A stretch of DNA of 64,000 nucleotides from Micromonospora sp. WMMD1102 (GTDB taxonomy: Bacteria; Actinomycetota; Actinomycetes; Mycobacteriales; Micromonosporaceae): the NCBI RefSeq assembly GCF_029626265.1, contig NZ_JARUBN010000001.1, positions 7,877,001 through 7,941,000 on the forward strand, written 5' to 3'. The notes beneath the pieces are model-generated. The model searched no databases, was not told where the DNA came from, and saw only the letters and a program-made list of their open reading frames with translations. Both the position numbers and the translations under genes were made by a program. Below, one piece after another: positions 27,194 to 32,935 of this stretch. The first letter of the stretch is position 1. Every line of letters begins with the position of its first letter.

Positions 27194-27523
27194 GTGACGG
27201 ACTATCTCGAGGTGGCCACCGCAACCGAGACGCGCGAGGCAGCGGTAGATCTCGCGGAGCACGTCGTCGCTGCGCGGCTGGCCGGCAGTGCTCAGATCAT
27301 CGGCCCGGTAACAAGCGTCTTCTGGCACGTGGGGGAGCAGGGGACCGGCGAGGAGTGGCGACTGTTGCTCTACACGACCGGCGACCGATACCCAGCACTT
27401 GAGGCTGTCCTGTTGCATCGGCATCCCTGGGACAATCCGCAGGTGACGGCTACTCAGATTGTCGCTGGCTCCGCTGCCTGTCTGCGCTGGCTTCGCGAGT
27501 CCGTCACGGAGCAGATCGGGTAA
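27194..27523 (+). CDS. CutA-like divalent-cation tolerance protein
   Basis: A 109-residue protein with the CutA1 fold pattern: VATATETREAAVDLAEHVVAARLAG, a VFWHVGEQGTGEEWRLLLYTT core strand set, RYPALEAVLLHRHPWDNPQV, and an AACLRWLRESV end. CutA trimers are linked to copper/divalent ion tolerance, but the role in actinobacteria is uncertain. GTG 27194 follows a short spacer. Its last 20 bases overlap the convergent XRE/TPR gene. Confidence 0.75.
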   Translation: MTDYLEVATATETREAAVDLAEHVVAARLAGSAQIIGPVTSVFWHVGEQGTGEEWRLLLYTTGDRYPALEAVLLHRHPWDNPQVTATQIVAGSAACLRWLRESVTEQIG

Positions 27524-28694
27524 CCATCGAATCCCGTAGCGCGGCGACACATGTCAGTTCCGCATGAGGAGCAAGCCGCGTGAGCAGTGCCTCGATTCGC
27601 TGCTTGGGGCGGACCGACGCGACGCCGGAAGACAGCCGTACGGCCTTCTCGGCGGTCACACAGCACTGCTCGATCTCGTTGACGTCCAGATAGGCATCGG
27701 CGAGCCAGGACAGGTACAACGCCTTGTCGCGGGCGTGGGTGTCGTCGTAGCGGCGGAGCACCGATTCGAGGACGGGGATCGCCCGCAGCGGCCGACGCAG
27801 GACCGTCCAGCATCGTCCAGTCATGATCTCGGCTTCCTGCTGGTCGACCCAGTACACCCAGTCCGGCTCCGGCCGGTCGTCCTGATCTGTCAGGCAGCTC
27901 ACGCCGATGTCGAGATGTCGCTCGGCGTCCTCGGGTTGCCCGTGCACGGCGTGAATCCAGGCGCGACGCATGTGCAACAGTGCGCGGACGCTTGGCGTCG
28001 CAGTCGGATCGGCAGTCTCGCAGGCTTCCACGATCGTCGGTGTCGCGGGCCTACCCAGGGCTAGCTCCTGATACGCGAGAAAAGCCATGGCATTGCCGGC
28101 GAGCGGCGCGTCTCCGGCGTCACGGGCGGCGGTGAGGCTGGTGCCGTAGAGCCGCTCCGCGTCGTCGTACCGTCCGGCATCAAACGCGGCCCAACCGGCC
28201 ATCTGCGCCTGCTCGGCGCAGACCGACAGCAGCGCCCGGCCGGTACGGTCGGGGTAACTTCCGTCCTGGATCAGCCGCCGAGTCGAGTCCAACTCGGTGG
28301 TGTACATCTGGTACGTGTCGGCCCCGCCGAGGTAGTCGTCGATCCGTCGCAGCCGGGCGGTGCGGTCGGCAATCTGCCGCGGCACATCAGCGGAGACTCT
28401 ACGGCCGTAATCGAGAATCGCCTCGGGGAGGACGACGGCGATTCCGGCATGTGCGATCACCGCACGCCGACGTACGCCCGTCTGCGCGAGGGCCGCCAGG
28501 GCACCATCGGCGCCGAGGGCTCCGTCGATGCGCAGAGCCGCCTGCTGTGTCGGCTCCTTGGCTCCGGTCTCCAACTCGTGCAGGTAGCTCTTGCCGTAGA
28601 ACGCCACCCGCGCGAGTTCACGCAGCGACAACCCGCGCTCGGCCCGGAGCCGGCGCATCTGATCTCCCAATCTTGGCGTAGCAGAGTCGTGCAT
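27504..28694 (-). CDS. XRE-family regulator with TPR-like repeats
   Basis: A 396-residue protein starting at ATG 28694. The N-terminal helix-turn-helix is MRRLRAERGLSLRELARVAFYGKSYLHELETG (about 12-45). The rest is helical with repeats consistent with TPRs (WAAFDAGRYDDAERLYGTSL, HMRRAWIHAVHGQPEDAERHL, YLSWLADAYLDVNEIEQCC). Such helix-turn-helix plus TPR proteins sense peptides or small signals in actinobacteria. It is divergent from the NACHT/TIR genes across about 290 bases, so it may control them; this is positional inference only. A longer frame upstream lacks a good start. Confidence 0.85.
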   Translation of the reverse strand: MHDSATPRLGDQMRRLRAERGLSLRELARVAFYGKSYLHELETGAKEPTQQAALRIDGALGADGALAALAQTGVRRRAVIAHAGIAVVLPEAILDYGRRVSADVPRQIADRTARLRRIDDYLGGADTYQMYTTELDSTRRLIQDGSYPDRTGRALLSVCAEQAQMAGWAAFDAGRYDDAERLYGTSLTAARDAGDAPLAGNAMAFLAYQELALGRPATPTIVEACETADPTATPSVRALLHMRRAWIHAVHGQPEDAERHLDIGVSCLTDQDDRPEPDWVYWVDQQEAEIMTGRCWTVLRRPLRAIPVLESVLRRYDDTHARDKALYLSWLADAYLDVNEIEQCCVTAEKAVRLSSGVASVRPKQRIEALLTRLAPHAELTCVAALRDSMVTRSAP

Positions 28695-28986: not shown

Positions 28987-30822
28987 GTGACCAAGGTCTA
29001 CGTATCGGCAACCTTCAGAGATCTGCAGGAACATCGCGCGGCCGTCCAGCTCGCGTTGCGCCGGCTGCGCGTGGAGGACACGGCAATGGAGTCGTACGTC
29101 GCCGAGGATCGCCGTCCGCTGGAACGGTGCCTGGCCGACGTGGCGGACTGCGATGTCTACATAGGCATATTCGCCTGGCGGTACGGGTTCATCCCGCCGG
29201 GCTTCGACCGCTCCATCACCGAGCTGGAGTATCGCGAGGCGCTCGCACACGGAAAGCGCTGCCTGATCTTCCTGGTCGACGAGGAAGCGCCATGGCCGCG
29301 CAGTTACGTCGATCGGGGCAACGACGCGGTCCGCATCGAGGCGTTCCGCGCGGAGTTGGCCGACCGCCACATGTGCAGTCTCTTCAGCGATCCTTCCCAG
29401 CTCGCGGCAATGGTGACCGCGGCGGTGGCCAACGTGCTGAGCGAGGCGAACTTTTCGCAGTACCCGTCCTCTACCCTGGGTCAGGACGTGCTACGGCGAT
29501 ATTTCGGTCGTCTGCGACAGCACTACGGCGTGCTCGACCTGGACGTCCTGACGCCAGCGCACTCGGAGGAGCACTTCCAACTCCAGTTGGCGTCGGTGTT
29601 CGTCGAGCAGTCGGTGCTCCCGGTGTCGTCCGGGATTTTGAACACCTCGGATCGTTCGGCCGAGCCGGTCGACCCCTGGGCGTCTCCGCCGCAGCCCCTG
29701 TTCGACGCCCTCGCTGATCCGGAGAAGCGCAGGATTGTCCTGCTCGGTGCCCCGGGCTCCGGGAAGTCGACCATCATCCGATACCTGGCACTTACCCTTA
29801 GCCAGGAGGATCACGATCATCGACTGACTACGTTGGCCGATCACGTTCCACTGCTGGTCCAGCTCCGGTCGTACGCTGCTCTCGCGGCCGACGGACGCTG
29901 CGAGGGGTTCGTCGCCTATCTGGACTACCTGGCCCGTACGAACGGGTTGGGCATCGACCGGCGCATGCTGGTCCGTCATCTCAGGACGGGCAGGACGCTT
30001 GTCCTGTTCGATGGGCTCGACGAGGTTCTCGATCCGCGTCAACGTGAGGAGGTGTCCAGCCAGATCGCGGGATTCGCAACCGAGTTTCCGAACGTCCGGA
30101 TGGTCGTCAGCAGCCGGCCCTACGGCTACGCCAAGCGGGTCTTCGTGGCTGCCGGGTTCAGTGACCTAATGCTCCAGCCCTTGGACGCCAAGCAGATCGC
30201 GGCGTTCCTCTCGTCCTGGTATCGGCTGACCTCGACGACGAAGGCGGTCGAGGAAGAGGCGCCGGCTCGGGAGGCGCGTCTGCTCGACGCGATTGAGCAC
30301 TCACCGTCGTTGCGGGAGATGGCGGGCAACCCGATGCTCCTGACGATCCTGACGATTGTGGGAAAGCACCAGGTCCTGCCCCGAACGCGCCTGCGTATCT
30401 ACCGGCACGCAACTGATCTGTTGATCGAGTTTTGGGACGTCACCCGCCATCTGCGCACGCCGGAGAGTACCGGCTTCATCGAGATCGAGGACAAGCGGGA
30501 GCTTCTCCGTCGGGTCGCCTATCGTATGCAGGAGGCCGACAACGGCCTGCGTGGTAACGACATCAAATCGGACGAGTTGCGGCGGGTGTTCGAGGAATAC
30601 TTTGTCGATAGATACCAAATGGATCTGGTCGCGGTTCGTGGCATCAGTCAGTCTCTCATCGAATCATTCAGCGTTCGTAGCGGCATCCTGACGGAGGTCG
30701 AGGAAGGGACCTACCGGTTCGCGCACCGCCTCTTCCTCGAGTTCTTCGCGGCGGACGCCATCGTCACCCGGTTCCGCCGTGGCGAGTTGTCGCCCTTGCA
30801 ACTCCGGCGATTGTCGCGTTGA
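28987..30822 (+). CDS. DUF4062-NACHT STAND ATPase
   Basis: A 611-residue protein. Residues 1-150 are a DUF4062-type domain (KVYVSATFRDLQEHRAAVQ, CDVYIGIFAWRYGFIPPG, SITELEYREAL, RCLIFLVDEEAPW), a Rossmann-like fold I regard as TIR-related. A linker follows, then a NACHT ATPase: Walker A LLGAPGSGKST (about 252-262), LVQLRSYAAL, Walker B LVLFDGLDEVLD (about 339-349), SSRPYGYA sensor and the helical NACHT follow-on (LREMAGNPMLLTILTIV). It ends soon after FAHRLFLEFFAADAIV, without leucine-rich or TPR sensor repeats. The GTG start at 28987 has GGAG upstream. NACHT proteins in bacteria are known anti-phage sensors; this gene overlaps the TIR-ATPase gene by four bases. Confidence 0.9.
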   Translation: MTKVYVSATFRDLQEHRAAVQLALRRLRVEDTAMESYVAEDRRPLERCLADVADCDVYIGIFAWRYGFIPPGFDRSITELEYREALAHGKRCLIFLVDEEAPWPRSYVDRGNDAVRIEAFRAELADRHMCSLFSDPSQLAAMVTAAVANVLSEANFSQYPSSTLGQDVLRRYFGRLRQHYGVLDLDVLTPAHSEEHFQLQLASVFVEQSVLPVSSGILNTSDRSAEPVDPWASPPQPLFDALADPEKRRIVLLGAPGSGKSTIIRYLALTLSQEDHDHRLTTLADHVPLLVQLRSYAALAADGRCEGFVAYLDYLARTNGLGIDRRMLVRHLRTGRTLVLFDGLDEVLDPRQREEVSSQIAGFATEFPNVRMVVSSRPYGYAKRVFVAAGFSDLMLQPLDAKQIAAFLSSWYRLTSTTKAVEEEAPAREARLLDAIEHSPSLREMAGNPMLLTILTIVGKHQVLPRTRLRIYRHATDLLIEFWDVTRHLRTPESTGFIEIEDKRELLRRVAYRMQEADNGLRGNDIKSDELRRVFEEYFVDRYQMDLVAVRGISQSLIESFSVRSGILTEVEEGTYRFAHRLFLEFFAADAIVTRFRRGELSPLQLRRLSR

Positions 30823-32384
30823 AGCGCAGCGAGCCGCATTGGCAGGACGTGCTGGAGATGATTGCCGATGCCGTCGGGCCGGAGATGCTCTCGGCAGAGT
30901 TGAGCGACGTCTTCAAGCTGAACGGCACCCCGACCCTCACCTTCGTGGAGCCGCCGGACTTCACCCGCTTCCGGATGGCGCTACGACAGCCGGGACTTGG
31001 GATCGTCCTAGAGGGACCGTCCGGGATCGGGAAGTCCACCTTCCTGCAACAAGCTGTGCGACTTGAGCACGAAAGGGGCCTTCTGATACCCGTACTGAGC
31101 GCCCGGCGTCCCGAGGATCTGCCGAAGATAGCGGTGTTACCCACCGAGCACCGTCGTGGCGTCGTTGCCGTCGACGACTTCCAGCGGTTGCCCGAGGACC
31201 TTCGGGTCAAGCTCGTCGACTACCTGAGGCTTCTCGCGGACGAGGAGTCCCCCGACCGACGGTTGGTCATATCTGGCATCCCCGGTACCGGGCAGAGTCT
31301 CGTCGAGTTGGCCTTCGACCTGGCCACTCGGATCAAGATCTTCCGGGTTCCGATGGCGACCGATGCGCTGATCGACGAGATGATTTCGAAGGGCGAACAG
31401 GCTCTCAACATCAAGTTCACCCATGGGCACGACATCGTCCGACTCGCCAGTGGAAGTCTGCACACCGCCCAGATGCTCTGCTGGCATCTCGCGGCGCACG
31501 GTGGCGTCGCATGCACGTCACCTCGGACGCTGGCCATCGACGATGGGCTGGACGACGCGCTGCGGCAGGTAGAGGACTCCCTGGCACTGAAATACCGCAA
31601 GGTCGTGCAGTCGTTCGCAGCTCTGGACGGCCAGAGCCAGCAGTCCTGCATCGAGCTCCTTCTCATGCTTGCCGAGACGCCGGACGGGATCCTGTCACTG
31701 GACCAGGCTGCGGAGCAGCGACCCCACCTCGCGCGGGCGATAACGTCGCACCTGCTCGAAGCCTCTCCCCAGGGATTCGGTGGTCCGCAGGCAGAACTGG
31801 CCGACCACCTCTTCCTCGACCGGCGGGCTCGGCGGCTCGTCATCGAGGATCCACAACTGCTCTTCTACCTACGCCGCCAGGATCCCGAGATGCTGGCCCG
31901 CGCTGTCGGAAAGCGAGTCAACGCCAAGCGCGATCAGGTATTCGTCAGTTACAGCCATCAGGACCGTGACTGGCTCGACCGATTGGACCGTCATCTCAAG
32001 CCCTTGATGAGGCGAGGGCTGGTGAACGTCTGGACGGACACTCGGATCTTGCCGGGGGACAGTTGGCGGGAAGAGATCGACGCCGCGCTACAACGGGCCC
32101 GGGCGGCAGTACTGTTGGTCAGCCCTGACTTTCTCGCGTCCTCGTTCATCGAGGAGGTCGAACTGCCGGCCCTGCTCTCTGCGGCCTACGACGACGGCTG
32201 CCGGATCCTGCCGGTCATCGTCTCGCCGAGCATCTTCACGAGCATCCCGGAGCTCGCCCGATTCCAGGCGTTCAACTCCCCCTCGATGCCGCTCTTGGGG
32301 CGCAGTGACTACGAGAAGGAGAAGGTCTTCAGCGAGGTCGCGGCTGTCCTGCTTCGGCTCTTCGCCGAACCGCCCGTCGCATAG
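30819..32384 (+). CDS. ATPase with C-terminal TIR domain
   Basis: A 521-residue protein with TTG start overlapping the NACHT stop (TTGA). An N-terminal stretch (about 1-60) is followed by a P-loop ATPase: Walker A VLEGPSGIGKST (about 64-75), Walker B VVAVDDFQRL, arginine-type SGIPGTG loop and a helical lid (about 180-330). After a linker comes a TIR domain (about 372-515): DQVFVSYSHQDRDWLDRL, VWTDTRILPGDSWREEIDAAL, AAVLLVSPDFLAS, FIEEVELPALL (Glu about 448 is the candidate NADase residue) and RILPVIVSP. TIR domains in bacterial defence degrade NAD+ or make signalling nucleotides. With the NACHT protein upstream it forms a two-gene candidate defence module. Confidence 0.9.
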   Translation: MKRSEPHWQDVLEMIADAVGPEMLSAELSDVFKLNGTPTLTFVEPPDFTRFRMALRQPGLGIVLEGPSGIGKSTFLQQAVRLEHERGLLIPVLSARRPEDLPKIAVLPTEHRRGVVAVDDFQRLPEDLRVKLVDYLRLLADEESPDRRLVISGIPGTGQSLVELAFDLATRIKIFRVPMATDALIDEMISKGEQALNIKFTHGHDIVRLASGSLHTAQMLCWHLAAHGGVACTSPRTLAIDDGLDDALRQVEDSLALKYRKVVQSFAALDGQSQQSCIELLLMLAETPDGILSLDQAAEQRPHLARAITSHLLEASPQGFGGPQAELADHLFLDRRARRLVIEDPQLLFYLRRQDPEMLARAVGKRVNAKRDQVFVSYSHQDRDWLDRLDRHLKPLMRRGLVNVWTDTRILPGDSWREEIDAALQRARAAVLLVSPDFLASSFIEEVELPALLSAAYDDGCRILPVIVSPSIFTSIPELARFQAFNSPSMPLLGRSDYEKEKVFSEVAAVLLRLFAEPPVA

Positions 32385-32469
32385 CTACCTAGACCGAAAT
32401 TGAGACCGGACAGTGAACGCCCGGCGGTTCCCGTAGGGCTCTGCCGGGCGTTTCTGCTGGTCAAGCGAG

Positions 32470-32554
32470 CGGAGGATACGAGATTCGAACTCGTGAGGGT
32501 GTTAACCCAACACGCTTTCCAAGCGTGCGCCCTAGGCCTCTAGGCGAATCCTCC
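32470..32554 (-). tRNA. tRNA-Ser (GGA anticodon)
   Basis: Read on the minus strand: acceptor GGAGGAT pairing with ATCCTCC, anticodon stem CACGC/GCGTG around loop TTGGAAA (anticodon GGA, reading UCC/UCU), long variable arm, and T loop TTCGAAT. CCA is not encoded. It lies between the candidate defence genes and the SRP RNA. Confidence 0.93.
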
Positions 32555-32637: not shown

Positions 32638-32726
32638 GGCACCCCCCGTGTGGCGTCACCTCGTGAACCTCCCCAGGGCCGGAAGGCAGCAAGGATAAGC
32701 GAGCTCTGTCGGGTGCACGGGGGGCC
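32638..32726 (+). ncRNA. ffs: Small signal recognition particle RNA (4.5S)
   Basis: Contains the conserved SRP domain IV core (CCAGGGCCGGAAGGCAGCAA) closed by a stem formed by GGCACCCCCCGTG and CACGGGGGGCC. It binds Ffh to target membrane proteins. Location between tRNA-Ser and dnaX is the normal actinobacterial order. Ends are estimated from the base pairing. Confidence 0.93.
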
Positions 32727-32935
32727 TTGTCATCCCCCTGACCAGGGCTGCCGGCCGCCGAGCCGGCCTGGCGGATCACTCGGCGCGCGGCCCACCTCAT
32801 GATCACCCCGGACCGGGCGACCACCGGCCGCACCCGCATGATCGACGTGGAAAACGTCGGGCGCGCGTGACAACCTTGGCACTCGGCAGCGTGGCGGCGG
32901 GTGGAGAATGGCCCGGTCGAGAGGAGGCGGGACGA

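Follow-up and report, generated by a model that had tools for sequence, protein, structure and literature searches.

Two overlapping open reading frames of Micromonospora sp. WMMD1102 as a probable split DUF4062-NACHT-AAA+-TIR gene

Do two overlapping genes with defence-type domains form a two-gene system, or are they pieces of a single gene? This question is raised by positions 28987 to 32384 of a 64,000-nucleotide (nt) stretch of the Micromonospora sp. WMMD1102 genome (contig NZ_JARUBN010000001.1, positions 7,877,001 to 7,941,000), the whole of which is called the window here. A sequence-only reading had placed two overlapping open reading frames (ORFs) in it, one with DUF4062 and NACHT domains (28987-30822, gene 1) and one with an ATPase and a TIR domain (30819-32384, gene 2), and had proposed a defence system in which the first protein senses phage and the second executes the response. 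The placement of the ORFs was borne out, with Pfam DUF4062, NACHT and TIR_2 all above cutoff. Gene 1 and gene 2 make up a split or frame-broken copy of a gene from a single-chain family, which is undescribed in the literature searched and related to known DUF4062 + NACHT defence proteins. Judging from homologous sequences, gene 1 and gene 2 are very probably the N-terminal and C-terminal parts of one ancestral protein. That reading had overlooked the enzymatic, TIR-like nature of DUF4062 and the fact that relatives carry the counterparts of the two ORFs as adjoining halves of a single protein.

The two frames and their single-chain relatives

The ORFs and their junction are as follows.

28987..30822, + strand: gene 1, GTG start to TGA stop, 611 amino acids (aa); DUF4062 (TIR-like; Glu81), NACHT nucleoside triphosphatase (NTPase) and winged-helix region
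30819..32384, + strand: gene 2, TTG start to TAG stop, 521 aa; linker, ORC/Cdc6-like AAA+ ATPase and TIR (Glu448)
30819..30822, + strand: TTGA junction in the NACHT-to-AAA linker, a 4-nt overlap of the gene 1 stop (30820-30822) with the TTG of gene 2

The GTG of gene 1 is preceded by GGAG 5 nt upstream. DUF4062 covers residues 3-85 of gene 1 (77.5 bits; cutoff 24.7) and NACHT residues 248-412 (41.8 bits; cutoff 26.7), with Walker motifs present and a conserved P-loop (G254-T262). Gene 2 encodes a P-loop ATPase with its Walker A motif at 66-73, for which the reported ATPase families all score under the Pfam cut-offs, followed by TIR_2 at residues 374-484 (68.5 bits; cutoff 28). The catalytic glutamate suspected at about residue 448 of gene 2 is indeed residue 448, which is E in 109 of the 124 rows aligned, the window included (7 gaps and 8 other residues), and Glu81 of the gene 1 DUF4062 is conserved in 135 of 135 rows. 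Both P-loops and both TIR-fold glutamates are thus retained across the two genes. Since Glu81 and Glu448 are both kept, the ancestral protein would have had two NTPases flanked on either side by a TIR-fold enzyme. The predicted structures of both proteins have good confidence, and the NACHT model resembles NLRC4, NOD2 and NLRP3 in a comparison covering the families ranked by Foldseek. The G+C content of gene 1 (63.6%) and gene 2 (63.9%) lies below that of the window (70.7%), which fits acquired DNA, short of proof.

The best gene 2 homologues continue well upstream, and DUF4062, NACHT, AAA and TIR stand on one chain in 8 of the 15 listed homologous proteins. Two forms of this family were observed. 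The long form has HEAT repeats between NACHT and AAA within one polypeptide of about 1,780-2,040 aa; for example, P0243 of Plantactinospora alkalitolerans (1,984 aa, single frame) contains DUF4062, NACHT, HEAT (10 HEAT_2 stretches), AAA and TIR, and the other long forms are P0244 (P. soyae, 1,973 aa), P0248 (Paractinoplanes rishiriensis, 1,777 aa), L051 (genome G020), P0250 and P0251. The short form is one chain with no HEAT repeats (P0245, 1,120 aa; P0246, 1,101 aa; P0247, 1,127 aa; the first and last of these were scanned for domains), and P0005 is a further short form with an incomplete N-terminus. The sequence-only reading was right that sensor repeats are missing from both window proteins, for which no repeat family was reported at E<=1 (for gene 1, among the best 25 of 29 families); their absence is a property of the short form, with HEAT present in long-form relatives. 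The domain order of the family (DUF4062, NACHT, AAA, TIR) runs across the two ORFs of the window, and its continuous frame is interrupted there by the stop at 30820-30822, with gene 2 lying in a different frame.

Screening of 300 Micromonosporaceae genomes gave any match at 1e-20 in 15, and a match across AAA and TIR together in six, the window's own counted. Each of the other five has one open frame of 1,629-2,162 aa, with DUF4062-NACHT in the same frame in four (the G020 frame is listed with a TGA, located at its C-terminal end); the fifth, Winogradskya consettensis, has a different NACHT plus a TIR. The match level is 65% in both G113 and P. alkalitolerans (L004). In none of these five genomes do DUF4062-NACHT and AAA-TIR form separate adjacent genes. 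Nor did a further such pair turn up among 394 genomes of the class and 396 of the phylum, which were screened with gene 2 only at 1e-60 and of which 10 and 1, respectively, matched (own genome included). The claim of a two-gene pair therefore fell: the co-occurrence check found no second two-ORF case in the genomes searched, and the relatives carry both halves on one chain.

An AAA-TIR tree was built from 55 rows chosen by hand from the 124 aligned. The window falls inside a 13-row DUF4062-NACHT(+/-HEAT)-AAA-TIR clade (support 100/99). The other rows of this clade are six long forms, four short forms, P0004 and P0003, a partial sequence; nested in it, the window, P0003 and three of the long forms make up a five-row set (99/93). 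Because the window lies within a single-chain clade, the split is derived. Frequent decay of Frankia-family copies was also considered and rejected, as no stop was present in the aligned AAA or TIR stretches of 10 loci; in four of these loci (L096-L099), the AAA has no detectable C-terminal TIR in its flank, and three of the four have an upstream TIR match.

The break in the linker and its possible readings

Two pieces from the junction, the C-terminal 30 residues of gene 1 and residues 1-27 of gene 2, were aligned independently of one another to relatives, with 200 shuffles each. In all four short forms (P0245, P0246, P0247 and P0005), the two pieces come to lie adjacent in the linker, the aligned part of gene 2 being aa 3-27, and the gap between them is exactly three residues, as many as stay unaligned at the ends of the two pieces. 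For the gene 2 piece, 0 of 200 shuffles scored as well against each of the four; for the gene 1 tail, the corresponding counts were 1, 0, 0 and 0. Against the long forms tested, the gene 2 piece is at chance (25/200 shuffles as good for P0243 and 82/200 for P0244). From this side-by-side fit, we conclude that the gene in the window is of the short form, with its frame broken in the linker. A recent deletion of the HEAT repeats from a long form was rejected, as the opening stretch of gene 2 agrees with the short form but with neither of the two long forms tested. In addition, third-position G+C is highest in the gene 1 frame to about 30800 and in the gene 2 frame at 30850-31000.

Taken as a whole, the locus is probably one ancestral short-form DUF4062-NACHT-AAA+-TIR gene split by a linker frame break, and its intact family would be a receptor resembling the nucleotide-binding leucine-rich repeat (NLR) proteins. 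Several observations weigh against this. The gene 1 tail aligns equally well to long and short forms. At 31050-31150, third-position G+C in the gene 1 frame is equal or higher again, so that this test is not clean and is only supportive. Plantactinospora-type long forms are closer to the window (DUF4062 78-83% identity, AAA 59-66%) than the short forms are (43-52% and 52-58%), so its history is not simple inheritance of a short form. Either the gain or loss of HEAT repeats happened repeatedly, or parts of the gene were exchanged; exchange between long and short forms is possible, as the identities elsewhere in the sequences lean to the long forms. Moreover, the tree shows no accelerated end branch for the window (0.44, compared with 0.45 for both L051 and P0003, 0.11 for P0243 and 0.17 for P0244), and no further lesion is seen. 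The branch length and the absence of lesions are equally compatible with a recent break and with a split that works, and they give no clear sign of long decay. We lean only slightly towards a window copy that is inactive or altered.

Could the split be functional? Gene 2 might be made by termination-reinitiation at the TTGA, the two proteins acting jointly or separately (in the latter case, gene 1 as a DUF4062-NACHT NAD-degrading enzyme, or NADase, and gene 2 as an autonomous AAA-TIR), which we judge somewhat unlikely. Every motif is retained in both halves, both fold with good predicted confidence, and they resemble modules that occur alone, namely a DUF4062-NACHT-HEAT paralogue in the same genome and AAA-TIR genes that stand alone, encode about 500 aa and in some cases lie on prophages. 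As such stand-alone genes exist, gene 2 could in principle act alone, and a working fission stays viable. However, predicted folding is no proof of function, gene 1 alone has no repeat sensor, the split occurs in no second genome among those searched, and the TTG of gene 2 has no Shine-Dalgarno sequence ahead of it. The TTGA overlap is itself weak evidence of coupling, because any TGA that is not preceded by C makes a start codon. The specific version in which an NLR-like receptor, with NACHT and an ORC-like AAA+ as its NTPase switches and a TIR-fold NADase at either terminus, underwent natural fission into a working DUF4062-NACHT NADase and a working AAA-TIR NADase seems rather unlikely as well. 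The frames of gene 1 and gene 2 differ by one base and single-chain relatives are the rule, so a sequencing or assembly error in a truly continuous gene has to be weighed. We consider it unlikely, given that no homopolymer longer than 3 occurs within 30760-30880, that the comparable flanking genes are each single-frame versus G032 (FG-GAP protein, NsdA type, dnaX N-part, RDD, ybaB, recR and a 107-aa gene), and that the genome completeness is listed as 100. The same offset, with a 138-nt stretch open in both frames, would permit a programmed -1 frameshift yielding the full-length protein from both frames, but this stretch contains no X-XXY-YYZ slippery heptamer and the single-chain relatives need no such event; we regard it as highly improbable, and recoding or some other cause of the break as improbable in general.

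The proposed two-gene defence system of a NACHT sensor and a TIR-ATPase effector has in its favour the defence-type domains and a chromosomal slot used by a defence gene, and it is nevertheless very improbable. Among the genomes searched, no other has the pair as two genes, and none of the flanks of 18 loci with distant, mostly stand-alone AAA relatives (L017-L034) contains a DUF4062, NACHT or other TIR match (tblastn, 1e-3). Furthermore, gene 1 carries its own NADase-type domain (PMC13174449), which leaves the division of labour into sensor and effector unsupported. A broken frame can mimic an operon, and a search for single-chain relatives should come first when overlapping STAND/TIR ORFs are to be named as a system.

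What remains of the defence claim is a STAND/TIR protein of anti-phage type. A NAD-depleting defence role for the intact family is reasonably likely. The intact protein may act in abortive infection as an NLR-like receptor: a phage cue would switch the NACHT and/or the AAA+ ATPase, receptor chains would oligomerise, and the N-terminal DUF4062 and C-terminal TIR, both TIR-fold, would consume NAD+. The supposed new two-gene system thereby gives way to a testable object, bacterial NLR-like proteins with two NADase-type domains, and to a mechanistic question: why are two such enzymes and two ATPases combined in one receptor?

The chromosomal slot and stand-alone AAA-TIR genes

The neighbouring features are listed below.

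27504..28694, - strand: divergent NsdA-family HTH/TPR regulator (NCBIfam NF053720, 239.7 bits; cutoff 75), a neighbour and not part of the system
32469..32554, - strand: tRNA-Ser(GGA) (ARAGORN), the edge of the variable slot
32640-32729: bacterial small signal recognition particle (SRP) RNA (Rfam RF00169), between tRNA-Ser and dnaX

The divergent XRE/TPR gene and the tRNA-Ser noted in the sequence-only reading do adjoin the pair. The slot upstream of tRNA-Ser, SRP RNA and dnaX carries other genes in sister genomes. In one of them (G032, L084:10872-12155), a Shedu gene lies in the same slot between an NsdA-type gene and tRNA-Ser (PADLOC SduA 4.7e-176; Pfam SduA_C), which makes a defence role plausible for the window genes. 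The finding supports the slot as a cargo site used by defence genes, defence cargo being seen in one sister genome plus the window. The Shedu gene is flanked by tRNA-Ser and by an 80-nt direct repeat of part of it (93%), a layout that amounts to a small tRNA-Ser cargo site in Plantactinospora. Similarly, the corresponding site of G058 (L090:4772-7785) has a pentapeptide-repeat gene, with tRNA-Ser on one side and an incomplete copy of it on the other. Unlike in G032 and G058, no tRNA-Ser repeat lies beside the window pair, and a tRNA-flanked insertion was rejected on this ground.

At 1e-50, 5 of 7 genus genomes have the NsdA-type regulator; it stands at the slot in the window genome and G032, elsewhere in G058, and not within 12 kb upstream of recR in G078. 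AAA-TIR is present at 1e-20 in 3 of the 7, and a DUF4062-NACHT paralogue in all 7 (frame of 1,462-1,634 aa), a constancy unusual for a defence gene. The paralogue of the window genome (C1:7216150; L080:2151-6512), the only copy scanned, is a DUF4062-NACHT-HEAT protein of 1,453 aa without a reported AAA-TIR family.

AAA proteins of about 500 aa occur in several phyla, on 15 viral contigs and on 5 plasmids (4 of 5 annotated as TIR proteins), and TIR_2 was confirmed in all five stand-alone proteins scanned (L018, L020, L025, L103 and L108). On four prophage contigs (L103, L108, L110 and L113; two near copies), the AAA-TIR gene comes directly behind a tail-completion gene, and three of them have a baseplate gene after it; PHROG checks of these neighbours covered L103 and L108. 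The prophage AAA-TIR (PHROG 6841) is a single-gene phage-defence candidate in its own right. No match to AAA-TIR was found at 1e-10 among 50,697 deposited phage records. A partner gene for the stand-alone AAA-TIR was sought among four ORFs on each side and rejected: neighbour families were common to only 3-4 of 30 loci, and the shared families checked (from L103 and L108) were the prophage tail-completion and baseplate genes. A separate architecture, found in Saccharothrix and a metagenome protein (L005:4489-7389, L015 and P0253), joins AAA-TIR to a different common N-terminal domain that looks cyclase-like by eye only; Pfam gave no cyclase-type family for P0253 at 1e-4 or for L005 at 1e-3.

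Comparison with known systems

No paper on a DUF4062-NACHT-AAA-TIR protein was found in listings of the open-licence literature; the word DUF4062 is absent from the main text of PMC7159879 and PMC8195603. Architecture labels CHAT and WD are unreliable, since the query pieces contain a TIR, and were pooled as TIR-fold. According to a preprint, DUF4062 is a TIR-like NADase in Swarozyc (KpSwz) and in human TEP1, NWD1 and NPHP3 (PMC13174449).

The DUF4062 of gene 1 matches both KpSwz (E 8.8e-6) and TEP1 (E 1.4e-5). Gene 1 shares with Swarozyc a DUF4062 with a catalytic-type Glu, and Glu81 aligns with a residue that is Ala in the KpSwz chain as deposited (probably E97A). However, the match spans only KpSwz residues 7-103 of 326, gene 1 has NACHT where KpSwz has its C-terminal auxiliary domain, and the window family adds NACHT, AAA+ and a second, C-terminal TIR. 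The human proteins are similar in that DUF4062 adjoins NACHT there as in gene 1, and the window family is built on this DUF4062-NACHT core common to TEP1, NWD1 and NPHP3. Gene 1 also resembles bacterial NACHT (NLR-like) proteins in its NACHT with Walker motifs, whereas the ancestral chain of the window family would have two NTPases and two TIR-fold ends, and the window copy and the scanned short forms are without a repeat sensor.

As for Thoeris, the TIR of gene 2 matches PADLOC ThsB (66.9 bits), but the match is confined to this domain, and no ThsA model is among the families listed for the three proteins scanned. Like the stand-alone AAA-TIR proteins (PHROG 6841; for the AAA part, PADLOC PDC-S59), gene 2 has AAA followed by TIR in one protein. 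It differs from them in sharing 26-35% identity over most of the AAA, in a weaker PHROG 6841 match (8e-25, best stretch aa 110-289, versus 5e-144 for L108) and in its place in the tree, where gene 2 belongs to the fused clade and the two stand-alone rows, the only ones included, sit on a 2.59-long branch.

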